Assembly (NCBI GenBank): GCA_022560365.1
Contig: JADFTG010000012.1
Coordinates: 1-11,997, forward strand
Length of the DNA stretch: 11,997 nt
Source: Chloroflexota bacterium
Lineage (GTDB): Bacteria; Chloroflexota; Dehalococcoidia; SM23-28-2; RBG-16-64-32
Reading direction: 5' to 3'
The notes below the pieces were generated by a model. That model saw only the letters and a program-made list of their open reading frames with translations. It made no database searches and had not been told where the DNA came from. The first letter of the stretch is position 1; each line of letters opens with the position of its first letter. The position numbers and the translations under genes were made by a program. Below, piece after piece: positions 1-11,997 of this stretch.

Positions 1-563
1 TCGGTCGATGCCATAGACGAGGGAAGAGTCTAGAATTGTCGGGGTCGGAAAGCTATCACGGCCTAGTGCTCCCCCTCCTCAAGGCGGCACGATACAAGCG
101 CAGGTCGCTACGCAGAAGGGGCTACCACATTTACTACTCAGTCCACATGATAGTTCCGGTTGCGGTACTGGATTCGCCGATGATCCTGATGACACGTAGC
201 GCTGACGGCACAGAAAATCTGACGCTCGCCCCCTGGGTGCGAGTCGTCCGCCACGAGCCTGCTCGTACCAAGGGCTATCTTGGTGACTTGATGTTTGCAC
301 TCGACGTAGTTCATATCGACTTCTTGGCCGAGTATCTACGATCTCACCTATTCGCCTTCGCGCGGGAGTTCGCTACGTCGGTCAGGGCCCACGACCAAGT
401 GTTGGCCGCAGGAAAGGGCTTCGCCTCCGGCCTGGGTGCGAATTCGTGGACAGACATCGAGCCGCGGCTGCGCGAGCGTAAATTCTCGGATGATGCCCGC
501 AGGGGGAGATCGACGATTCACCGTTTAGCACAGTTCCTGACCGGAAACATGCCTGAAGACTAG
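1..563 (+). CDS. Hypothetical protein, 3' part (5' end outside window)
   Basis: The frame is open from the first bases of the window (codon boundary at base 3) to TAG at 561-563, giving about 186 residues. A TTG at 36 could serve as a start but has no clear ribosome binding site, and the frame stays open upstream, so this is most likely the C-terminal part of a longer protein. A basic stretch (KAARYKRRSLRRRGYH) is followed by a hydrophobic strand-like region (MIVPVAVLDSPMILM) and a segment with PWVRVVRHE. That pattern resembles uncharacterised nuclease- or restriction-like hypotheticals, but I recognise no catalytic motif and assign no function. Hand-counted GC over 61-360 is about 56%, against about 67% in a sampled stretch of the CoA-transferase gene, which hints at acquired DNA. 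It ends 12 bases before the duplicated CoA-transferase 5' end. Confidence 0.6.
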   Translation, partial: GRCHRRGKSLELSGSESYHGLVLPLLKAARYKRRSLRRRGYHIYYSVHMIVPVAVLDSPMILMTRSADGTENLTLAPWVRVVRHEPARTKGYLGDLMFALDVVHIDFLAEYLRSHLFAFAREFATSVRAHDQVLAAGKGFASGLGANSWTDIEPRLRERKFSDDARRGRSTIHRLAQFLTGNMPED

Positions 564-575
564 GGAGAACCAGTA

Positions 576-633
576 ATGGGAACACCAGCGACTTACTTCA
601 ACGAACGCGAGCAGCAGATCTGCCTCGGCGCGC
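576..633 (+). repeat. Direct repeat, copy A (58 bp)
   Basis: It matches 926-983 at 55 of 58 positions, with mismatches at the third base of codon 2, the third base of codon 13 and the middle base of codon 18. The copies start 350 bp apart, in the same orientation, and both begin at an ATG. Upstream of the ATG the two sequences do not match beyond a purine-rich Shine-Dalgarno, so the repeat has a sharp left boundary at or near the start codon. Confidence 0.9.
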
Positions 634-671
634 AGTTGAGAACCGGCGTGAACGACGAGACCAGCCGATGA
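576..671 (+). pseudogene. 5' remnant of a duplicated CoA-transferase beta gene (31 codons)
   Basis: Bases 576-633 match 926-983, the start of the intact CoA-transferase beta gene, at 55 of 58 positions without gaps. The similarity ends within the next 15 or so bases. The remnant keeps its own Shine-Dalgarno (GGAG at 564-567, 8 nt from ATG) and start codon and encodes MGTPATYFNEREQQICL, then 14 unrelated residues before TGA at 669-671. The catalytic and CoA-binding parts are absent, so it cannot be a working enzyme. Its stop overlaps the start of the 76-aa membrane ORF (ATGA), so translation of the remnant could deliver ribosomes to that ORF. The near identity suggests a recent partial duplication. 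Confidence 0.75.
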
Positions 672-898
672 GCTTTCGCGTCCTGCTGATCCTGTCGGCG
701 CCGCTCGTGGTACCCGCGGCCATCGTACTGGCGCTGGCGCTGGCGCCGGCCGCTGCCTTTCTCTGGTTGACGTTCCGGCCGGCGGCGAACCTGGGCTCCG
801 CCTTCGTCGCGGTGGCTTATTCGCTGCTCGCCACGGCGGTCGTCAGCGCCTCTATCGCCTGGCCGATTCTGGCGATCTATGGGGCGAATCAACTGTAG
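668..898 (+). CDS. Small two-helix membrane protein, unknown function
   Basis: This encodes 76 residues that are strongly hydrophobic. One predicted membrane segment spans about residues 5-33 (LLILSAPLVVPAAIVLALAL and onward) and a second about residues 44-70 (AFVAVAYSLLATAVVSASIA and onward), with a short polar turn around FRPAANLG. No family is recognised and there are no conserved polar or metal-binding residues to suggest a role. It lacks a convincing Shine-Dalgarno. Its ATG overlaps the stop of the 31-codon remnant (ATGA), so expression would depend on translational coupling. It lies wholly between the two copies of the CoA-transferase 5' end. It may be a real small protein or a GC-rich open frame in rearranged DNA. 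Confidence 0.45.
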   Translation: MSFRVLLILSAPLVVPAAIVLALALAPAAAFLWLTFRPAANLGSAFVAVAYSLLATAVVSASIAWPILAIYGANQL

Positions 899-925
899 GA
901 TAGTCGGCGATAGCGGAGGACGACC

Positions 926-983
926 ATGGGCACACCAGCGACTTACTTCAACGAACGCGAGCACCAGATCTGCCTCGTCGCGC
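926..983 (+). repeat. Direct repeat, copy B (58 bp)
   Basis: This is the second copy of the repeat at 576-633. It forms the first 19 codons of the intact CoA-transferase beta gene. Beyond 983 the copies can be aligned for a few more bases only by allowing a gap of about four bases. Confidence 0.9.
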
Positions 984-1807
984 GGATGGTCGAGAACGCG
1001 CGCACGTACTGGGTGGCCGGCGGCGGCTCGCCGATGGCGGCGATCCTGCTCGCCAAGAAGCTGTCCGCACCGGAAGCCGTCTACGTCACGGAGGACGGCG
1101 TCGTCAATCCGGAGCCGATGCTGCCGTTGGACCCGCTGATGACGATGGTCAGCTCGCGGGCCTCGTACCGGGCGCTGCAGTGGGGGACGATGAACAGCGT
1201 CGGCTTCCAGGCGCAGATCGGGCTCATGGACGTCGGCATCCTGAACACGCTGCAGGTCGACCCGTACGGCAACATCAACTCGACGGCGACCGGAGACTAC
1301 AGCGGCGAGCACCGGCGCTTCGGCGGCCCCGGCGGCGCCGACTCGATCGCGGCGTTGTGCTGGAAGACGATCCTGATGACCGACCAGCAGAAGCGCAAGT
1401 TCGTGCCCCGCGTCGACTTCATCTCGTCGCCCGGCTATCTCGACGGCACGGAGGGCGCCCGCGAGCGCGCCGGCCTGCCCCGCGGCACCGCCCCCTGGCG
1501 CGTGGTGACGCCGTGGGCGTCCTTCGACTACGAGGACCGCTACATGCGCCTGGCCGGCGTCTCGCCGTTCGTGACGGTGGAGCAGGTGCTGGCGGAGATG
1601 TCGTTCGAGCCGAAGATGGCGAAGGAGATCGAGACGCTGGAGACGCCGACGGAAGAGGAGCTGGCGGTGCTGCGCAGCGAGCTGGACCAGCGCGGCCAGA
1701 TCACGGACGTCGGCAAGCCGATCGTGCGCCTGGACGACGGAACGTACCAGTTCGTCGAGGAGGAGCAGGCGGAGGCGAAGGAGAAGGAGACGCCCAGCAG
1801 CTGGTAG
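926..1807 (+). CDS. CoA-transferase subunit beta (GctB/IpdB-like)
   Basis: The 293-residue protein resembles the beta subunit of glutaconate-type (family I) CoA-transferases and IpdB-like proteins, which move CoA between carboxylic acids or act on ring-derived CoA esters. Family features include VDPYGNINSTATGDY (about residues 112-126), the glycine-rich GGPGGADSIAAL, and KRKFVPRVDFISSPGYLDG. Glu56 in VTEDG lies where GctB carries its catalytic Glu54; this assignment comes from a remembered alignment. The start is fixed by GGAGGA at 915-920, 5 nt before ATG. It is slightly longer than GctB (about 266 residues) through a charged C-terminal tail rich in Glu and Lys. The alpha subunit usually lies directly upstream, but here that place holds a membrane ORF and a partial copy of this gene. 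The substrate cannot be told. The gene converges on cofE with 6 bp between stops. Confidence 0.9.
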   Translation: MGTPATYFNEREHQICLVARMVENARTYWVAGGGSPMAAILLAKKLSAPEAVYVTEDGVVNPEPMLPLDPLMTMVSSRASYRALQWGTMNSVGFQAQIGLMDVGILNTLQVDPYGNINSTATGDYSGEHRRFGGPGGADSIAALCWKTILMTDQQKRKFVPRVDFISSPGYLDGTEGARERAGLPRGTAPWRVVTPWASFDYEDRYMRLAGVSPFVTVEQVLAEMSFEPKMAKEIETLETPTEEELAVLRSELDQRGQITDVGKPIVRLDDGTYQFVEEEQAEAKEKETPSSW

Positions 1808-1818
1808 GTGCTGCTACC
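1803..1818. terminator. Small hairpin between convergent stops
   Basis: GGTAG and CTACC form a 5-bp stem around a 6-nt loop and cover the stop of the CoA-transferase gene and the stop of cofE. There is no T tract on either strand, so this is at best a weak bidirectional terminator. Confidence 0.25.
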
Positions 1819-2569
1819 TGAAGAGATCCATCTCGCGGGCGCGGATGAGGTCTCGCGCTGAGCCTTCGCCGCGCGGGTAGTCGTAGCCACGGACGATCGT
1901 GACGGGGACGCCGTCGAGCTTGTTCTGGACGAGTTCAGCCGCCGCGGCCAGCTCGTCGGCGACGCAGAGGGTGCTCACGCGCAGCTCGTAGCCGAAGGAG
2001 TCCTTCTCGCCGACGTAGTCCACGAACGGCAGCATGCCGGCGATGCCGATCGCCACGTTCGTGTGGCCCTCGCGCCAGGGCCGGCCGAAGGTGTCGCTCA
2101 TGATCACGGCGACTTCGACACCGGCGGCCTTGCCGATGGCGTCGCGGATGCGGCGGCAAGAGGCGTCCGGGTCCTCCGGCAGCAGGCAGACGGTGCCCTC
2201 CGGGCCGACGTTAGAGGAGTCGATGCCAGCGTTGGCGCAGACGAACCCGTGCTTCGTCTCGGTGATCAGCACGGGGCCGCGCTGGCGGACGATGCCGGCA
2301 CTCTCGCGCAGGATCAGTTCGACGAGCCGCGGGTCCTTCTCCGTCTCGGCAGCCAGGCGCTCGGCCTCCGCGGACGGCGTTACGTCAGCAAGTGAGACGA
2401 CGCGGCCCTCTGCCTTGGAGACGATCTTCTGCGTAACGACGAAGATGTCGCCACGCTCGACGCCGGGGCCCGCCGTCGCCGCGGCGATGATCTGAGCCGC
2501 GACGTCGTCGCCTTCTCGCACTTCGGGAAGGCCCGGCAGGGGGATCAGACGGACTTCGGGGCCGCCCAT
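1814..2569 (-). CDS. cofE: Coenzyme F420-0:L-glutamate ligase (CofE)
   Basis: This 251-residue protein is CofE, the GTP-dependent ligase that adds gamma-linked glutamates to F420-0 in the last steps of coenzyme F420 synthesis. The length is that of stand-alone CofE, without the C-terminal nitroreductase-like domain of mycobacterial FbiB. Recognisable blocks are VVTQKIVSKAEG (residues 44-55), HGFVCANAGIDSSN (107-120), and SDTFGRPWREGHTNVAIG (158-175). The acidic and polar residues in the last two blocks belong to the metal and GTP site in this family. The ATG start has only a poor ribosome binding site and lies 13 nt after the npdG stop, so translation is probably coupled to npdG. It forms an operon with npdG, linking synthesis of the cofactor with its reduction. 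It is intact, with no missing key block. Confidence 0.95.
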   Translation of the reverse strand: MGGPEVRLIPLPGLPEVREGDDVAAQIIAAATAGPGVERGDIFVVTQKIVSKAEGRVVSLADVTPSAEAERLAAETEKDPRLVELILRESAGIVRQRGPVLITETKHGFVCANAGIDSSNVGPEGTVCLLPEDPDASCRRIRDAIGKAAGVEVAVIMSDTFGRPWREGHTNVAIGIAGMLPFVDYVGEKDSFGYELRVSTLCVADELAAAAELVQNKLDGVPVTIVRGYDYPRGEGSARDLIRAREMDLFR

Positions 2570-2582
2570 CGTCGGATCGCTG

Positions 2583-3236
2583 CTAGACGCCCGTGACCCG
2601 GATGCCGGTGTGGGCCTGGTAGATCTTGTTGATGTGTACGAGTAGCACGGTTAGCTGCTCAGTGAAGCGCGAGTTCTTAAGTGCGCCGCCGTCCAGCGCA
2701 CGAACGTAGTTGATCTCCTCGACGAGCGACATCACCTTCTGCTTCACCGACTTGTCCTCGCCGCAAACGATGACGTCGCCCTGCATCGGCCGGTCAACTC
2801 GCTGCAACTGCTTGGCGTCGAGGTGATGGAAGGCGCTGACGACGTTGGCGTTCGGAAGCAGCGAGGCGGCCTCCTCAGCAGCCGATCCGGCCTCGGGCAT
2901 CGCCGCTACCGGGCCGTCGTCACCCTCGAAGCTCATCGACACGGTCGTGTCGATGACGATCTTGTCAGCGATCGCCTCTTCGAGCTCTTTCAGTATCTCA
3001 GCGTGGGCCGATGCGGGCACGGTGACGAAGACGAAGTCGGCTTTGAGGGCACCGTCCAGGTTGGGTCCGCCGTAGAGATCGGCGCCGGGTGAGGCCTCGT
3101 GGATCTTGGCCACAGTCTCGGCGGCCCGTTCTTCGCTACGCGAGCCGATGTAGATGGCGTGTCCGGACTTGGCGAAGCGCATCGCCAGCCCGGTTCCTTC
3201 CGGGCCCGTCCCGCCGATAAACGCAAGTCTTGCCAT
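2583..3236 (-). CDS. npdG: F420H2:NADP+ oxidoreductase (NpdG)
   Basis: The 217-residue cytosolic enzyme transfers hydride between reduced coenzyme F420 and NADP+. It shows the N-terminal dinucleotide-binding motif GGTGPEG (residues 8-14) after a hydrophobic strand. SRSEERA (32-38) is the usual place for NADP phosphate recognition. The family's C-terminal helical end reads ALDGGALKNSRFTEQLT, then INKIYQAHTGIRVTGV. I chose the ATG at 3236 because GGAGG lies 7 nt upstream on the minus strand. The frame could extend to an ATG at 3275, but that would add 13 atypical residues encoded across the upstream terminator. It is followed after 13 nt by cofE. Its leader carries an intrinsic terminator immediately upstream, which suggests conditional read-through or a separate promoter. 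Confidence 0.93.
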   Translation of the reverse strand: MARLAFIGGTGPEGTGLAMRFAKSGHAIYIGSRSEERAAETVAKIHEASPGADLYGGPNLDGALKADFVFVTVPASAHAEILKELEEAIADKIVIDTTVSMSFEGDDGPVAAMPEAGSAAEEAASLLPNANVVSAFHHLDAKQLQRVDRPMQGDVIVCGEDKSVKQKVMSLVEEINYVRALDGGALKNSRFTEQLTVLLVHINKIYQAHTGIRVTGV

Positions 3237-3255
3237 TGAGATTCCTCCGGTCATC

Positions 3256-3292
3256 AAAAAGGGACAGGCGCCCACCCACTGCTGCCTGCCCC
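3256..3292 (-). terminator. Intrinsic terminator after the LLM gene, in the npdG leader
   Basis: On the minus strand a 9-bp stem (GGGGCAGGC with GCCTGTCCC, one G-U pair) closes a 14-nt loop and is followed directly by TTTTT. It begins 8 nt after the TAA of the oxidoreductase gene and its T tract ends 19 nt before the npdG ATG, just ahead of the npdG Shine-Dalgarno. It is the only textbook Rho-independent terminator I found in the window. Confidence 0.8.
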
Positions 3293-3300
3293 CGGTTAGT

Positions 3301-4356
3301 TTACAGGGTTGATCCGACCGTGCGAAAGCGCGGCATCACTTCGCGGGCGAAGAGTCCCATAGAGCGCCGCACTCGTTCCGGCTCGAGGCCACCCATGTTC
3401 ATCCAGCAGAGTACGTAGTTGACGCCCAGCTCATCGTGCAGCCACTCGATGCGGCGGGCGACGGTGTCCGGCGAGCCGAAGAGCATCAGCTCGTGGCGTG
3501 TCTCGCGCATATGTGCGCCCTTCTCGAAGCCCGCGTAGGTGCCGTAGCCAGCGGGCAGCTCGCCGCCCTTCGCTGCGGGCGAGCCGAGCGTGGTCAGCGA
3601 AGCGCCGTAGCGCCGCGAGTAGTCAACTCCGATCTCCTTCGCGCGGTCGTCGCTATCGTCGACGTAGACGTGCACGAGCGCCGGCAGGTCGGCGTTGCCC
3701 GAGCGGCCGGCCAGCTTCAGCGACTCGCGGTAGAGCTGGTAGTTCGTCTTGATCTGATCCGCCGCGAGCCCGGCCGGCGAGATGATCGGATATCCGCGCT
3801 CGGCGGCGTAGCGAATCGTCTCCGGCGTCATCCAGCTGGCAACGTAGATGGGTGGGTGCGGCTTCTGCACCGGCTTCGGGAGGACGCTGACGTCTTGCAC
3901 CTGCGTGAACTGGCCGTCGTAGGAGAACGACTCTTCGGTCCAGGCGCGGAGGAGGATCTCGATGCACTCGTCGAAGCGCGCGCGGCTCTCATCCATCGAC
4001 ACGCCAAACCCAGCGAACTCGGTCGCCTGGTAGCCACGGCCGACGCCGAAGTCCAGCCGGCCACCGCTCATGATGTCGAGCGTCGCCGCCTGCTCCGCGA
4101 GGCGTAGCGGGTCGTGGAAGGACAGCGTCACGATCGCGGTGCCGATGCGCACGCGCTCTGTACGCGCCGCCACCCAGGCGCCGATCTGCATAAGGTCGGT
4201 GCCGATGCCGTACCACTGGAAGTGGTGCTCCGCCAGCCAGACGCCGTCGAAGCCAAGCTCTTCCGCCGCCTCGATCTGGGCCAGTTCGGCAGCGAAGACG
4301 TCGCTGTCCGACCAGCCGGGCGGCCTCTGGAAGAGGTGGAAGGTACCGAACTTCAT
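3301..4356 (-). CDS. LLM-class flavin/F420-dependent oxidoreductase
   Basis: The 351-residue protein belongs to the bacterial luciferase-like monooxygenase superfamily, TIM-barrel enzymes that use FMN or coenzyme F420. The signature N-terminus MKFGTFHLFQRP leads to ELGFDGVWLAEHHF, then RVRIGTAIVTLSFHDPLRLAEQ and GRLDFGVGRGYQ. Later come PVQKPHPPIYVA and the C-terminal GSPDTVARRIEWL. Position next to npdG and cofE favours F420 as cofactor, but FMN cannot be excluded from sequence alone, and the substrate is unknown. The start at 4356 matches the family N-terminus. The frame extends to 4428, but those 24 residues are unlike the family. A TATACT element only 9 nt before this ATG suggests a leaderless or nearly leaderless mRNA. 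It is divergent from the ABC operon. Confidence 0.9.
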   Translation of the reverse strand: MKFGTFHLFQRPPGWSDSDVFAAELAQIEAAEELGFDGVWLAEHHFQWYGIGTDLMQIGAWVAARTERVRIGTAIVTLSFHDPLRLAEQAATLDIMSGGRLDFGVGRGYQATEFAGFGVSMDESRARFDECIEILLRAWTEESFSYDGQFTQVQDVSVLPKPVQKPHPPIYVASWMTPETIRYAAERGYPIISPAGLAADQIKTNYQLYRESLKLAGRSGNADLPALVHVYVDDSDDRAKEIGVDYSRRYGASLTTLGSPAAKGGELPAGYGTYAGFEKGAHMRETRHELMLFGSPDTVARRIEWLHDELGVNYVLCWMNMGGLEPERVRRSMGLFAREVMPRFRTVGSTL

Positions 4357-4365
4357 AGTGGCGCC

Positions 4366-4371
4366 AGTATA
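4366..4371 (-). promoter_or_regulatory. Candidate -10 of the LLM gene (leaderless start)
   Basis: The minus strand reads TATACT, five of six matches to TATAAT, with 9 nt between it and the ATG. Transcription would then start within a few bases of the start codon, which fits the absence of a Shine-Dalgarno there. No good -35 is visible. Confidence 0.45.
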
Positions 4372-4380
4372 CAACCGTGG
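4368..4380 (+). repeat. 13-mer repeat, copy 1 (candidate operator)
   Basis: TATACAACCGTGG recurs as CATACAATCATGG at 4422-4434. Ten of 13 bases are identical and all three differences are transitions. The starts are 54 bp apart, about five helical turns, and TGGCG precedes each copy. This copy overlaps the -10 of the oxidoreductase gene. Confidence 0.35.
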
Positions 4381-4399
4381 GCCCGTGCCGCCGTTCCGG

Positions 4400-4429
4400 T
4401 TGCATGCGCATGGCGGGCGCGCATACAAT
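4400..4429 (+). promoter_or_regulatory. Candidate promoter of the ABC transporter operon
   Basis: TTGCAT (4400-4405) and TACAAT (4424-4429) are separated by 18 bp. The -10 matches consensus at five of six bases, the -35 only at three. Transcription from here would give a leader of about 110 nt before the ATPase start. Confidence 0.4.
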
Positions 4430-4434
4430 CATGG
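4422..4434 (+). repeat. 13-mer repeat, copy 2 (candidate operator)
   Basis: This second copy overlaps the candidate -10 (TACAAT) of the ABC transporter operon. One regulator bound at both copies could control the divergent genes together. Resemblance between two -10 regions by chance is the alternative. Confidence 0.35.
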
Positions 4435-4435
4435 T

Positions 4436-4544
4436 CGGCTCGCCGGAGATAGTGGCGCGGGGTGCGCCTCCGGCCTCACGAGCCGTTGGCCGTGCTTCTG
4501 GCATCGCACCCCCGCAGCGGATAACCGTACGAGGTTGCTTCGGC
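4436..4544 (+). promoter_or_regulatory. Structured 5' leader of the ABC operon
   Basis: A strong stem pairs 4459-4466 (GGGGTGCG) with 4505-4512 (CGCACCCC), extended by GC (4457-4458) with GC (4514-4515) across one bulged C. The 38-nt loop holds a smaller hairpin (CGGC 4471-4474 with GCCG 4482-4485). Downstream, AACC (4523-4526) can pair with GGTT (4533-4536) and so mask part of the GAGG Shine-Dalgarno at 4531-4534. A competing stem with a C(UUCG)G loop (4536-4545) uses the same T4536. There is no T tract, and the TPP and FMN riboswitch consensus motifs are absent. Confidence 0.35.
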
Positions 4545-5333
4545 ATGGCCAACGAAATCCAGCACGTCCAGCTGCGCGGTCTGTCCCACGTCTTTACGGA
4601 CGGACGCGAGCCCCTGCACGTCCTCGATGACGTATCAATCGACGTGCCACACGGACAGTTCACGTCGATCATCGGGCCGAGCGGCTGCGGCAAGTCGACT
4701 CTGCTGCGGATCGTCTGCGGGCTGCTGGAGCCGTCGGCAGGTACGGTACTCATCGACGGCGCCGGGCCGCACGACGCCCAGCGGCGCCACGACATCGGCA
4801 TCATCTTCCAGGAGCCAGCGCTGCTGCCCTGGCGAACGGTCGCCGGGAACGTGCGCCTGCCTCTGGAGATCGGCGGTGCACGGCAGCGCGGCACGGACGC
4901 CGAGGCGCTGCTCGACCTCGTCGGCCTTAGCGAGTTCCGCGACTACTACCCGTACCAACTCTCCGGCGGCATGCGGCAGCGCGTGGCGATCGCCCGGGCG
5001 CTGGCCGTAGACCCAACGCTGCTCCTGATGGACGAGCCGTTCGGCGCGCTGGACGAGATCACGCGCGCGGCGATGCGATACGAGCTGCTGCGCATCTGGG
5101 CCTCGCAGGCGAAGGCTGGGGCGCGCAAGACAGTGCTGTTCGTCACACACTCGATCACCGAGGCGATCGTGATGTCCGACCGGATCATCGTGATCAACGG
5201 CCGGCCCGGGCGCGTCGTCGCGGATGCCGCAGTCGAACTGCCGCGACCACGAACACAGGAGATCGAACGCAGCGCGCCGTTCCTGGACTACGCAGACCAC
5301 CTGCACGGCCTGCTCGTCGGAGCGGCCGTGTGA
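4545..5333 (+). CDS. ABC transporter ATP-binding protein (NMT1/THI5-type importer)
   Basis: This 262-residue ATPase drives an importer of the nitrate/sulfonate/thiamine-precursor type (SsuB/TauB/ThiZ-like). All motifs are intact: Walker [10 protein letters not shown] (residues 44-52), Q-loop Gln89 in FQEPALLPW, signature LSGGM (139-143), Walker B LLLMDE (159-164), D-loop GALDE (167-171) and switch His202 in VTHS. I chose the ATG at 4545 because [10 protein letters not shown] directly precedes the normal first strand and GAGG lies 10 nt upstream. The frame extends to 4377, but those 56 residues are unlike the family and would cover the leader. Its stop overlaps the start of the permease (GTGA). 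With the permease and binding protein it forms a complete three-gene importer at the inner face of the membrane. Confidence 0.93.
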
Positions 5334-6121
5334 ACGAGCGCCTGCGCGGCATCCTGTGGGGCGTCGTGACGTACGGGCTGCCGCCGGCGATCACCTTCGC
5401 GGTCGTGATCGGCCTCTGGGAGGCATACGTCGCCTGGCGCGACGTCTCGATACTGGTGGTCCCGGCGCCGTCCGACGTCTGGGAGCGCTTCTTCGACGAT
5501 CCCGGCTACTTCTGGGAGCAAGGCTGGTGGACGCTGTACGAAGCGACGCTGGGCCTCATCGCCGGGTCGGCAGTTGCGATCACGCTGGCCGTGATCATGG
5601 CGCACTCGCGGACCGTGGAGCGCGGGCTGCTGCCGCTGGCGATCGCGATGAAAGTGACGCCGCTAGTGGCGATCGGGCCGGTGCTGATCGTAATCTTCGG
5701 GTTCGGCACGACGCCGAAGATCTTCCTCGCCGCCCTGCTCTGTTTCTTCCCGATGCTCGTCAACGCGCTCACAGGCTTTCGGGACGTGGACTCCGGAGCG
5801 CTGGAGTTCATGCGCTCCCTGCGAGCCTCGCCGTGGAGCATCTTCTGGAAGCTGCGCGCCCCAAGCTCGCTGCCGTACGTGCTGAGTGCTCTGCGCATCA
5901 CTTACCCGTTGGCGCTTGTCGGCGCCGTCATCGCCGAGTGGTTCACCGGCAACCGCGGCCTCGGCTTCGTGGTTTACTCGGCGGCCCAGAACCTGCGCAC
6001 GCCGGAGCTTTTCTCCGCGATCGCCGTGCTGGCGCTGATCGGCGTCGCTATCAATATCGCCCTTTCGCTCCTGGAGCGCCGCTTGCTGTTCTGGCACGAG
6101 TCCGTCCGGAGCACCCGTTAG
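5330..6121 (+). CDS. ABC transporter permease (NMT1/THI5-type importer)
   Basis: The 263-residue integral membrane subunit is of the BPD_transp_1 family (SsuC/ThiX-like), with about six predicted membrane segments. The first lies near residues 12-32 and the last near 230-248. The cytoplasmic coupling loop, equivalent to the EAA motif, reads EFMRSLRASPWSIFWKLRAP; it contacts the ATPase. The preceding motif IVIFGFGTTPKIFLA is typical of this subfamily, as is PAPSDVWERF before the first conserved helix of the domain. Translation starts at GTG (5330), overlapping the ATPase stop by four bases, a sign of tight translational coupling. Its TAG at 6119-6121 merges with the Shine-Dalgarno (AGGAG) of the binding-protein gene. 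The substrate cannot be read from the permease itself. Confidence 0.93.
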   Translation: MNERLRGILWGVVTYGLPPAITFAVVIGLWEAYVAWRDVSILVVPAPSDVWERFFDDPGYFWEQGWWTLYEATLGLIAGSAVAITLAVIMAHSRTVERGLLPLAIAMKVTPLVAIGPVLIVIFGFGTTPKIFLAALLCFFPMLVNALTGFRDVDSGALEFMRSLRASPWSIFWKLRAPSSLPYVLSALRITYPLALVGAVIAEWFTGNRGLGFVVYSAAQNLRTPELFSAIAVLALIGVAINIALSLLERRLLFWHESVRSTR

Positions 6122-6133
6122 GAGACCACCCGC

Positions 6134-7213
6134 ATGAAGAATCTGGGATTCGCAATCGTCCTGCTAGCGACGTTGTTCGTCATCGTCGCCTTCTCCGCTT
6201 GCAACGATGACGACGATGGCGGCGCGACGCCGGGGCCGTCCGCGATCAGCGCGACCGGCGCCAACGCTACCGCTACCCTGGCCCCGCCGGACGAGGTGAC
6301 GTTCATGGCCGGCTTCAAGCCACAGGCCAACCTGCCGTTCGTCGGCGCTTACGTGGCGCAGGAAAAGGGCTTCTTCGCCGAGGAGAACCTGGATGTAGAG
6401 ATCCAGCACGTCGCCACGCCCGGCGACAACTTCCGCCTGCTCGCCACGGGTCAGGTGCAGTTCTCGACGTCAGACGCTTCGTCGCTCCTGGAGAAGTGGA
6501 CCGGCGACCCGGTGATCGAGGTCGTCTCGCTGGCGCTGATCGGCCAGACGGGCCAGCAGGGGTTCGCCGTGCTGGCCGACTCCGGCATCGAGAGCCCAGC
6601 AGACTGGGCCGGCAAGACCGCCGGCTACAAGGGCAGCGACGTGCCGCCGGACTACCTGGCGATTCTCCAGGCGAACGGCCTCGACCGCTCCGACGTCGAG
6701 GAAGTGCGAGTCCCCTTCGCCCCGCAGGTCCTGACGGAGGGGCAGGTTGATATCTTCCCCGTGTTCATCGCCAACGAGCCGGACACGCTGAGCCGTCTGG
6801 GCTTCGAGACTCGCGTCTTCACCGCCGCCGACTACGGCGCACCTACTCTGGGCCTGTCGTACGTGACGACGCCCGAGTACGCGGCGGAGAACCCGGACAT
6901 CACTGCCCGCTTCACGCGCGCCGTCCTGCGCGGAATTGCTTACGCAGAAGCGAACCGCGAGGAGGCGATCGACATCGTGCTGCAGTACGCGCCGAACGAG
7001 GAACGCGAACACCAGCGCTACATGCTGGACACTGAGCTCGAGATGGCGCAGCCCATGCCGTTCTACGCGCACCTGGGCCTCGGCGGGCAAACGCTTTCGC
7101 AGTGGCAGGCGCTGCACGACTTCCTGATCGAGCACGACGGTCTGCCGCGAGAGATCGCAGACCTGTCGGTCGTCTTCACGGAAGACTTCAAAGCGTACGA
7201 TGGCGGCGAGTAG
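6134..7213 (+). CDS. ABC transporter substrate-binding lipoprotein, NMT1/THI5-like
   Basis: The 359-residue binding protein should capture the substrate outside the membrane. A lipoprotein signal peptide (residues 1-22) ends in the box FSAC with Cys23. Phe at the -3 position is less usual than Leu. It is followed by Asn-Asp-Asp-Asp-Asp and an Ala/Thr/Pro/Ser linker to about residue 52. The domain opens with FKPQANLPFVGAYVAQEKGF and continues with GDNFRLLATGQVQFSTSDA, both typical of NMT1/THI5 proteins such as ThiY and RibY. Probable ligands are therefore a thiamine pyrimidine (HMP or a formylamino pyrimidine) or a flavin; sequence alone does not decide. AGGAG overlapping the permease stop lies about 10 nt before the ATG. 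It is the last gene of the transporter operon, with no clear terminator after it. Confidence 0.9.
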   Translation: MKNLGFAIVLLATLFVIVAFSACNDDDDGGATPGPSAISATGANATATLAPPDEVTFMAGFKPQANLPFVGAYVAQEKGFFAEENLDVEIQHVATPGDNFRLLATGQVQFSTSDASSLLEKWTGDPVIEVVSLALIGQTGQQGFAVLADSGIESPADWAGKTAGYKGSDVPPDYLAILQANGLDRSDVEEVRVPFAPQVLTEGQVDIFPVFIANEPDTLSRLGFETRVFTAADYGAPTLGLSYVTTPEYAAENPDITARFTRAVLRGIAYAEANREEAIDIVLQYAPNEEREHQRYMLDTELEMAQPMPFYAHLGLGGQTLSQWQALHDFLIEHDGLPREIADLSVVFTEDFKAYDGGE

Positions 7214-7258
7214 CCCGTAAGCGCTCCAAGGCAGGCGGAAACGTATCACAATAGGACG

Positions 7259-8488
7259 ATGCGATACGTGATCGCGGCATACGCCGCCTGTCTGACGCTG
7301 CTGGCCGTGTTCGCGGTCGTGGGCGCCGCGCTGGTCTTCGAGGCGACCGGGCCGTCGGACGCGGCTGAGGCGGCGGCGAACAGCCACTCGTTCAACTTGA
7401 TCACCTGGGAGCTGGAGCACTTGCCGCAGAAGTGGCTGTACAAGATCGGCGGCATCTTCCGCGAGGAGCAAGGGAGCGATGACGAGGCGCTGCAACGCTA
7501 CTTCGAGCTGGGCGACGAGATCGGCCGGCTGGCCGGCGACGCTCCGGGCTCGGACGAGCTGGCGCGGGCCGAGGACGAACGAGGCGACCTCGAAGCGCGC
7601 GTCGAGGACATCATCGAGGGGCGCGTGACGTCCGTGCTAGAGGAGCAGAACCTGGCGCTGGAGCCGCCGCTCTTCACCGACCTCGGGCTCATCTTCCCGC
7701 CGCTCGACTTCGAGCTCGACCCGCCGCCGCGCGTGCTCGCCGTCTCGCCACGCGACCGCATCGAGCTGGACGACTCGTACCTGCTGACGCCCGGTCTTTC
7801 GAGTGAGACGGCGCTTGCTATCGAGAGCAGCGTCGAGACCGATGACCCCGATGTCTCAGCGCTGGTCGTAACATCGGGCGGCGTGGCGACGTACCCGAGC
7901 GTGATCAACGAGGGCCGCTCGTACGAGCGCATCGTCGATACGGTGTTCCACGAGTGGCTGCACCAGTACCTGATCTTCTTCCCGCTGGGCCGTAGCTATT
8001 TCGAGGGCGGCGAGGCCCGCACGCTGAACGAGAGCGTCGCTAACATCGCCGGGAGCGAGTTGGCGCGCCTCTACTTCGAGAAGTACGGCGGGTTGGAGCC
8101 TGAGACGCCTCCTCCGACGCCCGGCCCGAGTTCCACGCCGGCGCCGACGCCAGACCCGGCGGAAGAGCCGTTCGACTTCAGCGCCGAGATGCGGGCGCTG
8201 CGCGTGGAGGTCGAGGAGATGCTGGCGGACGGCCGGATCAAGGAGGCGGAGGCGCTGATGGAGCGCAAGCGCACCGAGTTCGAGGCGAAGGGCCGTTACA
8301 TCCGCCGCCTGAACCAAGCGTACTTCGCGTTCTACGGATTCTACGCGGATACGCCCGCCTCGATCGACCCGATCGGCCCGAAGCTGGCGACGCTGCTCGA
8401 GCAGGCCGGATCGCCCGGCGAGTTCGTGCGGCAGGCCTCAGGGATCACGACGCAGGGCGAACTTGACCGGCTGCTCGGCGGCGGCTAG
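7259..8488 (+). CDS. Membrane-anchored HExxH zinc metalloprotease, aminopeptidase-like
   Basis: The 409-residue protein has one N-terminal membrane segment (about residues 5-27) and an otherwise soluble, probably extracytoplasmic body. The zinc motif is HEWLH (His231, Glu232, His235). The likely third ligand is Glu258 in LNESVAN, so this is a gluzincin (HExxH plus NExxA), resembling the predicted aminopeptidases of COG4324 (PF10023) but diverged. An acidic helical region covers residues 70-130. A Pro/Thr linker (about 281-302, with PPPTPGPSSTPAPTPDP) splits the metal site from a C-terminal helical part. The ATG at 7259 has AGGA only 2 nt away, a poor spacing; GTG at 7268 would have 11 nt. No terminator separates it from the importer 45 nt upstream, so it may be co-transcribed. 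The substrate is unknown. Confidence 0.8.
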   Translation: MRYVIAAYAACLTLLAVFAVVGAALVFEATGPSDAAEAAANSHSFNLITWELEHLPQKWLYKIGGIFREEQGSDDEALQRYFELGDEIGRLAGDAPGSDELARAEDERGDLEARVEDIIEGRVTSVLEEQNLALEPPLFTDLGLIFPPLDFELDPPPRVLAVSPRDRIELDDSYLLTPGLSSETALAIESSVETDDPDVSALVVTSGGVATYPSVINEGRSYERIVDTVFHEWLHQYLIFFPLGRSYFEGGEARTLNESVANIAGSELARLYFEKYGGLEPETPPPTPGPSSTPAPTPDPAEEPFDFSAEMRALRVEVEEMLADGRIKEAEALMERKRTEFEAKGRYIRRLNQAYFAFYGFYADTPASIDPIGPKLATLLEQAGSPGEFVRQASGITTQGELDRLLGGG

Positions 8489-8514
8489 TCCGCCTGCGCC
8501 CGGTCCGGCAGGCG
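8480..8514. terminator. Hairpins at the overlapping convergent stops
   Basis: The protease TAG (8486-8488) and the permease TAG (minus, 8485-8487) share the palindrome CTAG. GGCGG (8480-8484) pairs with CCGCC (8490-8494) around it. An alternative 7-bp stem joins CGCCTGC (8491-8497) and GCAGGCG (8508-8514). Both are GC-rich without a T tract, so termination is only possible, not clear. Confidence 0.3.
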
Positions 8515-10368
8515 CACGTCGTAGTCGAAGTCGAGGATACGGACGTTCTCGTGCTCGTCGAGGAACGGGCGCAGGCGGCGGATCGCCTGGTTATGGAGGA
8601 GGCTCTCCCACCAGTGGTGCGCCCGGAAGCCGGGCAGGATAACGGTGATCGGAGCGTCGCCTTCACTGCGCTCGAGGCTATCGATGTAGGCGAGCATGGG
8701 CCCGGCGAAGGCGCGGTACGGCGACTCGATGATCAGCAGCGGCACGTCCGGCATCAGGTCATCCCAACGCTGGCGGAACTCCTCGGCCTGATCCCGGTTG
8801 TCGGCAATGTGGACGGCGGCGATGTTGCCGGAGATTTCGCGCGCCATGTCGATCGCACCCATTGTGATCTTGTTGATGTCGTCGACGGGGACGACCACGT
8901 GCTCGCCGCGGCCCCGCTCCACCAGCGGCTTTGCCGGCGGTGCCCTGCGCCGGATGTCGTCTTCGTCGACTTTGACCTGCCGCTCGTACCAATCGTAGTG
9001 CCGGCGGATCATCGCGAAGACAGCGACCAGCACCACTACCATGACGAGCGAGATCCAGGCGCCCTGCGTGAACTTCGTCGCGCCGATAATCACCGCGACG
9101 GCGGCCGTCGCGCCGAGCCCGACGACGTTCATCGCCATGCTCCGCTGCCAGCCCGGATCGCGCCGCGTCCACCAGCGCTTCACCATGCCCAGTTGCGACA
9201 GGCTGAAGGCGATGAAGACGCCAACGGCGTAAAGCGGGATCAGCTTCGTGACCGAGGCGCCGTAGATGACCAGCAGTACGCAGGCGATGACGCCCAGCAC
9301 GAGGATGCCGTTGGAGAACGCCGGGCGGTCGCCGCGGAAGTTGAACTGCCGCGGCAGGTAGCGGTCGCGGGCCAGGATCGAGCCGAGCAGTGGGAAGGCG
9401 TTGAAGCTGCTGTTGGCGGCGAGGAAGAGAACCATCGCCGTCGTGGCCTGCAAAACGTAGTAGACGATGTTCTCACCCCAGACAGCGCGGCCAAGCGACG
9501 AGACGAGCGTCTGGTCTGTCTCGGGCACGAGACCGAAGCGGCTGACGACGAACGTGATGCCAAGGAACATGTAGACGGCGATGCCGGCCATGATCGCCAT
9601 CGTCATCCGCGCGTTCTTCGCCTCCGGCGGCTTGAACGTGGGCGTCCCGTTGGCGATCGTCTCAACGCCGGTCAGCGCCGACGCGCCGGAGGAGAAGGCC
9701 CGAAGCACGAGCCAGATGGTGAGGCCCTGCGTCGCCACTACCTCCCCGGCGGGCGGAGCGGCATGCGTGAACGAGCCGGGTGAGTCGCCGATGAGAACGC
9801 GCACGAAGCCGACGGCGATAGTGCCACCCATCGCAAGGATGAAGAAGTAGGTTGGAGCGGCGAAGAACGAGCCGGACTCGCGGATGCCGCGCAAGTTGCC
9901 CAGGGTGAAGAAGACAACGAAGGCGACGGCCATCGGCACGCGGTAGTCGATGAGCTCCGGCACGGCAGAGGTGATCGCCGCCACACCCGCGGACACACTG
10001 ACCGAGACGAGCAGCGTGTAGTCCACCATCAGCGCGCCGGCGGCGACGAGGCCGGGGTATCGCCCGAGGTTGTCGTGCGAGACGGCGTAGGCGCCACCAC
10101 CGCCGGGATAGGCCCGGATCGTTTCTCTGTAGGAAATCATGACGAGGACCAGCAAAGCGGCGACTACGATACCGATCGGCAGGAGGTAGTCGAGACCGGC
10201 TGTACCGGCGAAGGTGAGCAGGATCAGCGCTTCCTCCGTGGCGTAGGCGGAGGACGAGAGCGGGTCTGAGCCGAGGATGGCGAGCGCCTTGATCTTCGTC
10301 AGCCGCTCATGGATCGACTGAGCGGTCGCGATCGGGCTGCCGAGCACTGTGCCCTTGAAAGCCTGCAC
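8485..10368 (-). other. KimA-like permease part with alternative GTG start
   Basis: If translated on its own from GTG at 10366-10368 this part gives 627 residues, close to KimA (about 607). Its first residues (VQAFKGTVLGSP) line up with the KimA N-terminus nearly end to end. The upstream GAGCGG is only a weak Shine-Dalgarno. Expression could therefore be as a fusion, as a separate product inside the agmatinase remnant, or both. Confidence 0.5.
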
Positions 10369-10986
10369 GATCCGCTCGACGCCCGACACCTGCTCGAGCA
10401 CATTGCGCATGATCGAGGCGTGTGAGTAACGCAAGCCGTGGTAGCGATCGCGCAGGTCCATGTGGGCGTCGATCTGGAGGATGCCGATGGGGGATGCGGG
10501 GCCGAAGTGCTCCGCCACCGCCCGGATCGCACCCAGCGAGACGCTGTGCTCGCCGCCGACGATGCCCGGCGTCCTGGACTCAGCCAGTATCGCCGCCGTG
10601 TGACTTTGGACGAAGGCGTTGACGCGCTCGCCGGCGGCGTCGATGCGCTGAACCGCGTCCGCGTCAGTCGTGCCACCGCCCGCGATGATCGGTTCGGCGA
10701 TCGGCCGGGTCTGCTCGGACAGGTGCGCGATCGACTCGTCGGTCGGCTCCATGTAAATCCCCCGCTCATAAATCCGACCAAGCGTGTGGTCGTACAGATC
10801 GACCTGCACCGAGGCCTTCCGGATCGCGTCCGGGCCCCGGGCGGCGCCTGTGCGGTACGAGGAAGTGGCGTCGAATGGAACGGGGACAAGAATGACGCGA
10901 GCGGTGTCGCGCGTGCAGTGCAGCCCAAAGATCCCGGCGCCGGGCGTCGCCGGCGCATCGGGGTCGAATGACGGGTCGGTGTGCAT
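8485..10986 (-). CDS. Agmatinase N-terminal half fused in frame to KimA-like APC permease
   Basis: One uninterrupted frame of 833 residues. Residues 1-206 are the first part of an agmatinase/ureohydrolase; from residue 207 a full APC-superfamily permease follows with no linker. The permease resembles KimA (YdaO), a proton-coupled potassium importer. It has SDPLSSSAYATEE, the loop YPGGGGAYAVSHDNLG, VDYTLLVSVSVSAG, LTGVETIAN and IPLYAVGVFIAFSLSQ, about 12 membrane helices, and a cytosolic USP-like tail (EHVVVPVDDINK, then HHWWESLLHNQ). Counted from the junction, Asp35, Tyr42, Asp116 and Tyr117 sit one position from the KimA residues 36, 43, 117 and 118 (from memory), so the permease is complete. 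Older annotation may call it simply amino acid permease. I chose ATG 10986, which starts the usual agmatinase N-terminus; the frame upstream to 11298 is antisense to the next gene. The alternative is that the permease starts separately at GTG 10368. Confidence 0.8.
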   Translation of the reverse strand: MHTDPSFDPDAPATPGAGIFGLHCTRDTARVILVPVPFDATSSYRTGAARGPDAIRKASVQVDLYDHTLGRIYERGIYMEPTDESIAHLSEQTRPIAEPIIAGGGTTDADAVQRIDAAGERVNAFVQSHTAAILAESRTPGIVGGEHSVSLGAIRAVAEHFGPASPIGILQIDAHMDLRDRYHGLRYSHASIMRNVLEQVSGVERIVQAFKGTVLGSPIATAQSIHERLTKIKALAILGSDPLSSSAYATEEALILLTFAGTAGLDYLLPIGIVVAALLVLVMISYRETIRAYPGGGGAYAVSHDNLGRYPGLVAAGALMVDYTLLVSVSVSAGVAAITSAVPELIDYRVPMAVAFVVFFTLGNLRGIRESGSFFAAPTYFFILAMGGTIAVGFVRVLIGDSPGSFTHAAPPAGEVVATQGLTIWLVLRAFSSGASALTGVETIANGTPTFKPPEAKNARMTMAIMAGIAVYMFLGITFVVSRFGLVPETDQTLVSSLGRAVWGENIVYYVLQATTAMVLFLAANSSFNAFPLLGSILARDRYLPRQFNFRGDRPAFSNGILVLGVIACVLLVIYGASVTKLIPLYAVGVFIAFSLSQLGMVKRWWTRRDPGWQRSMAMNVVGLGATAAVAVIIGATKFTQGAWISLVMVVVLVAVFAMIRRHYDWYERQVKVDEDDIRRRAPPAKPLVERGRGEHVVVPVDDINKITMGAIDMAREISGNIAAVHIADNRDQAEEFRQRWDDLMPDVPLLIIESPYRAFAGPMLAYIDSLERSEGDAPITVILPGFRAHHWWESLLHNQAIRRLRPFLDEHENVRILDFDYDVRLPDRAQAD
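10369..10986 (-). pseudogene. Truncated agmatinase/ureohydrolase moiety (206 residues)
   Basis: This part begins MHTDPSFDPDAPATPGAGIF and carries family blocks VILVPVPFDATSSYRTGAARGP, IVGGEHSVSLGA (His147) and DAHMDLRD (Asp173, His175, Asp177), ending in SHASIMRNVLEQVSGVERI. Agmatinases of this type run to about 300 residues and use a second metal-binding motif (SxDxDxxDP) in the missing C-terminal third; here it is absent. Without it the two-manganese centre that hydrolyses agmatine to putrescine and urea cannot form, so this half is very probably inactive as an enzyme. It is open with no internal stop, which suggests a young event or selection for expression of the downstream permease. A TATCCT element 8 nt before the ATG would give a leaderless transcript. 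Confidence 0.75.
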
Positions 10987-10994
10987 ACCGCGGT

Positions 10995-11000
10995 AGGATA
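10995..11000 (-). promoter_or_regulatory. Candidate -10 of the agmatinase-permease gene
   Basis: The minus strand reads TATCCT, 8 nt before the ATG at 10986, with no Shine-Dalgarno between. The spacing repeats that of the oxidoreductase gene and fits a leaderless mRNA. No -35 is evident. Confidence 0.35.
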
Positions 11001-11029
11001 GGGCCAAAGGCGACGCATCGGGCCCGGGC

Positions 11030-11035
11030 GTATGC
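11030..11035 (+). promoter_or_regulatory. Candidate -10 of the membrane protein-galK unit
   Basis: TATGCT lies 33 nt before the ATG at 11069, within the 82-bp divergent region. A Shine-Dalgarno (GGAG, 11059-11062) follows 6 nt before the start. No -35 is evident, so the call is tentative. Confidence 0.25.
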
Positions 11036-11068
11036 TCTGGCGCGGTATCAGCGACGACGGAGATCGAC

Positions 11069-11797
11069 ATGGCAAACGACGGCGACGGTCCATACGAACT
11101 TGAGCCCGACGACCCCAGCGCGCCGGCTGAACAGGGCGACCAAAGCGCCTCATCGCAGCCTTCAGGCGACGTGGTGCCGACCGAGCCTCTCATGGACGAC
11201 CTCGACGAGGACGCGGATCTCGAGCGCGACCCGGAGGTCGAGCGGGTACTGACGGGCCGACCCACAAGCGACCGGCATGATGAATCGCCCATCCCCATCG
11301 AGCCCGTCGATGCGCCACGTCAGCCCGTCGTGTTCGTCAAGCCGGCGTGGGATTCACCGAGGATGATGATGATCTTCGGCGGCGTGCTGACGGCCGCGGC
11401 GATTGTCGCAACCTATGTAAACGAGGACAGCCACGAGGTGCTCAGGTCCGTGCTGTCCCTCTACAAAATCGCGGTGCACACCGGCACCGGCGTGGTCGCG
11501 GTGATCGTCTCGGCCCTGCTCGTGCACATGAAGATCGGGCGGCTGGACAAGGCCGCGGCCAGAATGTTCGTCGCCGTGTCCGCCTTCATGCTCGTCGCGC
11601 ACCTCGACATGAACATCAAGACCAACACGGTCGAGCTGCTGGCTGCGGCGGCGACGTACGTGGCGGTCGTGGCCTGGCTGTTCCGATTCAAACGCGATCA
11701 TCTGCTGATCGTGTCCATCGCGCACCTGGCGCTGGTGGCGGTCACACAGCTCGGGATGGTGCTCTCGAAATACACGTCGTGGAGCGGCGCGGGATGA
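11069..11797 (+). CDS. Membrane protein with acidic N-terminal tail, unknown function
   Basis: The 242-residue protein is not one I recognise. Residues 1-95 are hydrophilic, rich in Asp, Glu, Ser and Pro, and probably disordered (for example [20 protein letters not shown]). The rest holds about five predicted membrane segments: near residues 99-116, 128-150, 165-177, 188-204 and 208-228. Charged residues within or between helices include His136 and the short loop [13 protein letters not shown]. The start is supported by GGAG at 11059-11062, 6 nt from ATG, and by the position of the divergent gene. The stop overlaps the galactokinase start (ATGA), so the two are translated together. That coupling could mean a link to sugar metabolism, but the protein shows no transporter motif and no such role is claimed. 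Confidence 0.75.
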
Positions 11798-11997
11798 GCG
11801 CGCACAACGCCTGTGTCGGGCGTGCGTGCGAGGCGTTCTTGCGCGTCTTCGGCACACGGGCGACCCACGCGGCGTCGGCGCCCGGCCGGGTCAACCTCAT
11901 CGGCGAGCACACGGATTACACCGGCGGGTACGTCCTGCCCATCGCCATCGACCTGCGCTGCGCCGCGGTGGGGCGGGTTGCCAGCGGCAGTGGACCG
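11794..11997 (+). CDS. galK: Galactokinase, N-terminal part (cut by window edge)
   Basis: The frame starts at ATG 11794 inside the stop of the preceding gene (ATGA overlap) and stays open to the edge, giving 68 residues. [20 protein letters not shown] is the galactokinase signature of GHMP kinases, followed by LPIAID. In galactokinases the Arg of PGR and the Glu-His-Thr-Asp segment bind galactose and position it for ATP-dependent phosphorylation to galactose-1-phosphate in the Leloir pathway. The N-terminus has the usual length before this signature. The ATP-binding glycine-rich loop lies beyond the window. Related GHMP kinases (N-acetylgalactosamine or arabinose kinase) share part of this motif, so galactokinase is likely but not certain. 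Confidence 0.88.

Follow-up and report, generated by a model that had tools for sequence, protein, structure and literature searches.

An apparent agmatinase-KimA fusion on a Chloroflexota contig is almost certainly an artefact of a chimeric contig

An open frame with an agmatinase part and a KimA part

The DNA analysed here (the window, 11,997 bases) is the complete contig C310 of a Chloroflexota genome, G000, which is presumably a metagenome-assembled genome (MAG); the assembly comprises 343 contigs and is 76.21% complete. A minus-strand open frame at 8485-10986 encodes an apparent fusion of 833 amino acids, beginning as a member of the arginase family and continuing as a KimA-type permease. 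Pfam places Arginase at residues 30-208 (profile positions 2-155 of 280) and AA_permease_2 at residues 232-644. A first-pass annotation had described one unbroken frame leading from an agmatinase into a permease, and the frame does run uninterrupted from 10986 to 8485.

The agmatinase part (10361-10986, minus strand) corresponds to the first ~208 of ~335 codons of a Planctomycetota agmatinase. In a scan of GTDB genomes the best agmatinase locus was L035, titled Planctomycetota bacterium isolate B67T1L10. This MAG contig carries at 6001-7008 an intact arginase-family enzyme of 335 amino acids (Pfam PF00491; TIGR01230), which covers positions 2-277 of the 280 in the Pfam profile, and residues 1-208 of the frame are 93.75% identical to it by BLASTP (94% in the GTDB scan). 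The metal-binding regions of ureohydrolases are GG[DE]H / DAHxD and SFDxDxxDP. GGEHS and DAHMD are present in the frame, whereas SFDID, found in the intact relative, is absent from all 833 residues; the copy in the window ends before this motif and lacks the last ~127 residues of the enzyme, as the first-pass annotation had noted for the second metal motif. Against the TIGR01230 agmatinase equivalog the frame scores 102.5 bits, below the cut-off of 174.3.

The permease part (8485-10382, minus strand) comprises the core and the C-terminal domain of a Chloroflexota KimA-type K+/H+ symporter. The chain of the KimA structure 6s3k (residues 5-598 of 607) gives a full-length alignment to residues 210-817, with 472.8 bits. 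The best permease locus in the GTDB scan, L034, belongs to genome G002 and is titled Chloroflexota bacterium isolate OFTM284; its KimA (5731-7968) is likewise a KUP-family K+/H+ symporter by 6s3k and AA_permease_2. Identity to it is 88.6% over 655 residues (179-833, BLASTP) or 89% over 179-830 (GTDB scan), which takes in the whole transport core and the C-terminal domain. On these alignments the permease part is predicted to be a KimA-type potassium importer of the KUP family. L034 has the intact kimA on the one long contig of the same genus; its product has 745 amino acids, with ~115-120 residues ahead of the transport core, and it is this N-terminal extension that the agmatinase piece replaces in the window. 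The earlier statement that the permease loses nothing holds for the transport core, which is whole, but not for the native extension. As far as can be judged from sequence, each parent is ordinary: an agmatinase-family ureohydrolase on one side and a KUP-family KimA on the other.

Different origins of the two sides

From 567 to 10387 the window follows the gene order of two same-genus genomes, G002 (L034, L123 and L133) and G003 (L124). The DNA matches them in order at 88-92% identity, from 567 (G002) or 700 (G003) up to 10387; G003 lacks most of kimA.

On the other side of the join, 10362-11997 is 94.7% identical in DNA to L035 and contains the same genes in the same arrangement. A membrane protein of 242 amino acids (11069-11797, plus strand) is divergent from the agmatinase, as in L035, and is followed by the first 68 codons of a galactokinase (11794-11997, plus strand; Pfam PF10509, 1.3e-21), which is cut by the contig end and is 95% identical in DNA to L035 up to 11997. 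Beyond L035, the next agmatinase loci in the GTDB scan mostly carry Planctomycetota or Phycisphaerae titles, at 64% identity and below; among relatives outside Planctomycetota, L040 (titled Cyanobacteria) reaches 61% and many Bacteroidota loci lie at about 35-43%. An agmatinase relative was found on 76 of 79 loci (L035-L113) and runs past residue 300 in 75 of them; in the remaining one, L084, the match reaches residue 294, near the end of the available stretch. With tblastn at E 1e-5, relatives of the membrane protein (12/79 loci) and of the galactokinase (7/79) were found exclusively on loci titled Planctomycetota, Phycisphaerae, Phycisphaerales or Phycisphaeraceae. The possibility that the agmatinase part duplicates the arginase-family gene of G000 itself (on contig C211) was considered and rejected, the two sharing 28% identity over 171 aligned residues.

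A deletion that fused an agmatinase gene to a permease gene next to it in a single genome, as proposed in the first-pass annotation, is contradicted by what precedes kimA in the genus. In G002 and G001 this is a penicillin-binding protein gene, with the Pfam domains Transgly and Transpeptidase in L034, and matching DNA from that region precedes kimA on contig C120 of G000 and in G003. In addition, none of the family's other 14 genomes contains the agmatinase segment or its neighbours, apart from a galactokinase stretch of ~75 bases that 8 of them have. Such a deletion is accordingly given hardly any probability at all.

The native 5' end of kimA was found elsewhere in the same assembly. C120 carries its first 37 codons (38 in L034), at 89% identity, together with the upstream genes, and terminates inside kimA at position 7767 of 7767; ~220 bases of kimA, in L034 coordinates, are in neither C120 nor C310. 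In G000 kimA is thus divided between two contigs, C120 with the 5' end and C310, and C310 was almost certainly continued into DNA of another organism.

The join and its interpretation

DNA matches to the two parents overlap at 10362-10387 only, and identity in 20-base bins shifts from L034 and L124 to L035 around 10361-10400. Within this zone lies a 22-base word on the minus strand (10361-10382, codons 202-209), all of which is matched only by the kimA of G003 (L124:7155-7176). The L035 agmatinase differs from it at two bases, one inside the word and the other at the end; the G002 kimA differs at three. The residues at the join are ERIVQ- or GRIVQ-like in both genes and in the same phase. The chimeric frame stays open because both genes encode [EG]RIVQ in that phase; by phase alone, an open frame would be expected across about one join in three, and its occurrence here is unsurprising.

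The best explanation of these observations, to which we assign a probability of roughly 0.96 from sequence comparison, is that the fusion is an artefact of a chimeric contig, produced in assembly or in library making. The two sides are co-linear with two different organisms, in each case as far as the join. Bases from ~567 to the join at 10361-10382 would come from the Chloroflexota genome, and those from the join to 11997 from a Planctomycetota organism that was presumably part of the same sample. Around VERIVQ the two genes, which are unrelated, appear to share ~20 bases in one codon phase, and this is where the crossover most likely took place. The shared stretch would be 21 bases if the Planctomycetota parent, ~5% divergent from L035, has the inner base of the window and the G000 kimA reads as that of G003. 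The agent was most likely the assembly of short reads or a chimeric molecule in the library; with a small k-mer size, an assembler could switch genomes at such a word. The 833-residue protein as written probably does not exist. The first-pass annotation had listed an assembly chimera among its readings, and it is this one that the two parents in different phyla, with conserved gene order on each side, strongly support. It had also looked to close relatives for an intact agmatinase and a separate permease in place of the fusion; both exist in relatives, but in two different phyla rather than at one locus.

Inter-genome misassembly is a known source of chimeric contigs in metagenomes, and the present case resembles it in that the origin switches at a short shared word, near a contig end and in a fragmented genome; it differs in that the mechanism within the assembly is here reconstructed from the sequence. 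Several points count against a chimeric contig. The agmatinase of the window is 95% identical in DNA to L035, which is therefore not the exact donor contig. C120 does not reach the join but stops ~220 bases before it, as counted in the coordinates of the relative. The join word is imperfect in both L035 and the G002 kimA, and beside it, on the kimA side at 10341-10360, identity to both kimA relatives falls to 0.70-0.75.

In one rival reading the transfer is real and recent: a Chloroflexota strain would have acquired Planctomycetota DNA, which recombined within kimA at the ~20-base shared word and left that one strain with a translated fusion of agmatinase and KimA. In its favour, no stop interrupts the frame at the join, the transport core matches the solved KimA over 210-817, illegitimate recombination could likewise make use of a short shared word, and the kimA locus seems prone to breakage in the genus, two other genomes having a damaged kimA. 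Against this, the foreign part extends only to the contig end, over 1.6 kb, and the assembly retains the native start of kimA together with the genes upstream of it, in a sequence that breaks off within kimA. Furthermore, the join occurs in no relative examined, and the foreign genes keep the L035 order, with no mobile-element-like gene found by Pfam among the three frames of the 1.6-kb part. A transfer of this kind is regarded as very improbable, though less so than the deletion discussed above.

The chimeric-contig reading carries a more general caution. An apparent new domain architecture, in frame and with strong scores for both domains, can arise from a contig chimera, and such a protein, if entered in databases, would seed a false fusion family. 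The tell-tale signs in this case are the two phyla, the conserved gene order on each side, the join at a ~20-base word and the contig end nearby.

Other genomes with the same junction, which the first-pass annotation had suggested looking for, were not found: G000 stood alone among 61 genomes and among 294 genomes, and none of 80 kept loci of 162 had it. Among the 61 genomes, only G000 had a match over both halves; other matches past residue 208 were short tails, with agmatinase reaching 283 at most and KimA starting from 147 at the earliest. A 60-residue join peptide matched in 48 of the 294 genomes of the class and was covered whole in G000 only, all other matches beginning at position 5 or later (position 8 in G002 and G003). 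Both halves were covered by none of the 80 kept loci, which come from GTDB species genomes and may leave out the genome of the window; some agmatinase alignments among them trail past residue 208, to 229-241. In plasmids, 209 records matched and 0/209 covered 80% of the query. A 773-residue frame in G044 that matches arginase was rejected as a second fusion: it consists of an intact agmatinase preceded by additional open frame.

The same join was therefore seen in no independent genome, and this bears on a further proposal, namely that an ancestral fusion family uses the agmatinase domain as a sensor or chaperone for KimA. The first-pass annotation had offered a sensor- or chaperone-like N-terminal domain, and the open frame, with nothing beyond it, speaks for one. 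The closest relatives of the two halves are intact separate genes in different phyla, at 94% and 89% identity, and KimA in the same family natively starts with an extension that is unrelated. With no fusion in any relative examined, this reading finds no support, and its probability is taken to be negligible.

Composition, the kimA locus in the genus and the left contig end

A third-order composition model was built from two small training sets (7.8 and 7.3 kb), C120 and the non-matching remainder of L035. The right end of the window (10365-11997) scored -12.8. The left part, cut into 21 overlapping pieces, scored between 6.3 and 27.9, and the same-genus loci L123-L125 (29 pieces) between 5.1 and 27.7. 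L038 and L039 (Planctomycetota, Phycisphaerae; 12 pieces) ranged from -34.9 to -10.7, but four other Planctomycetota loci (24 pieces) from -16.5 to 9.1. In windows of 800 bases kimA itself was low, at 4.6, 9.4 and -0.3 over 8801-10400, and the left contig end gave -8.1, -12.0 and 0.9 over 1-1600. The test fits a foreign right end in a supportive role and does not by itself place the switch.

kimA is broken in three of the four genomes of the genus examined (G000, G001 and G003), differently in each, and is intact only on the long contig of G002. In G003 (contig C31, L124) the part corresponding to window 8732-10032 is missing, with the break around L124 7490-7540, where ~27 bases resemble by eye an inverted piece of the 3' part of kimA, as in amplification or assembly chimeras. 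In G001 (contig C153, L125, 8786-9150) only a short middle piece, corresponding to window 9058-9421, is left between the first codons and the end. Either assembly trouble or real gene loss may account for the broken copies.

Adjoining kimA, window 7259-8488 encodes a protein of 409 amino acids that is conserved in the genus and has no Pfam match. It contains HEWLH, which resembles the metal protease motif HExxH.

None of the three same-genus genomes matches the left contig end, window 1-566; the match to G002 picks up at 567. This segment has a lower G+C content (0.58) and a negative composition score, and a frame of 186 amino acids at 3-563 has no Pfam match; it is possibly a second foreign or variable contig end. 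Just inside it, a direct repeat of 58 bases, 95% identical, lies at 576-633 and 926-983, 350 bases apart, with a similar pair in G002. Position 926 is also the start of a CoA-transferase-like frame.
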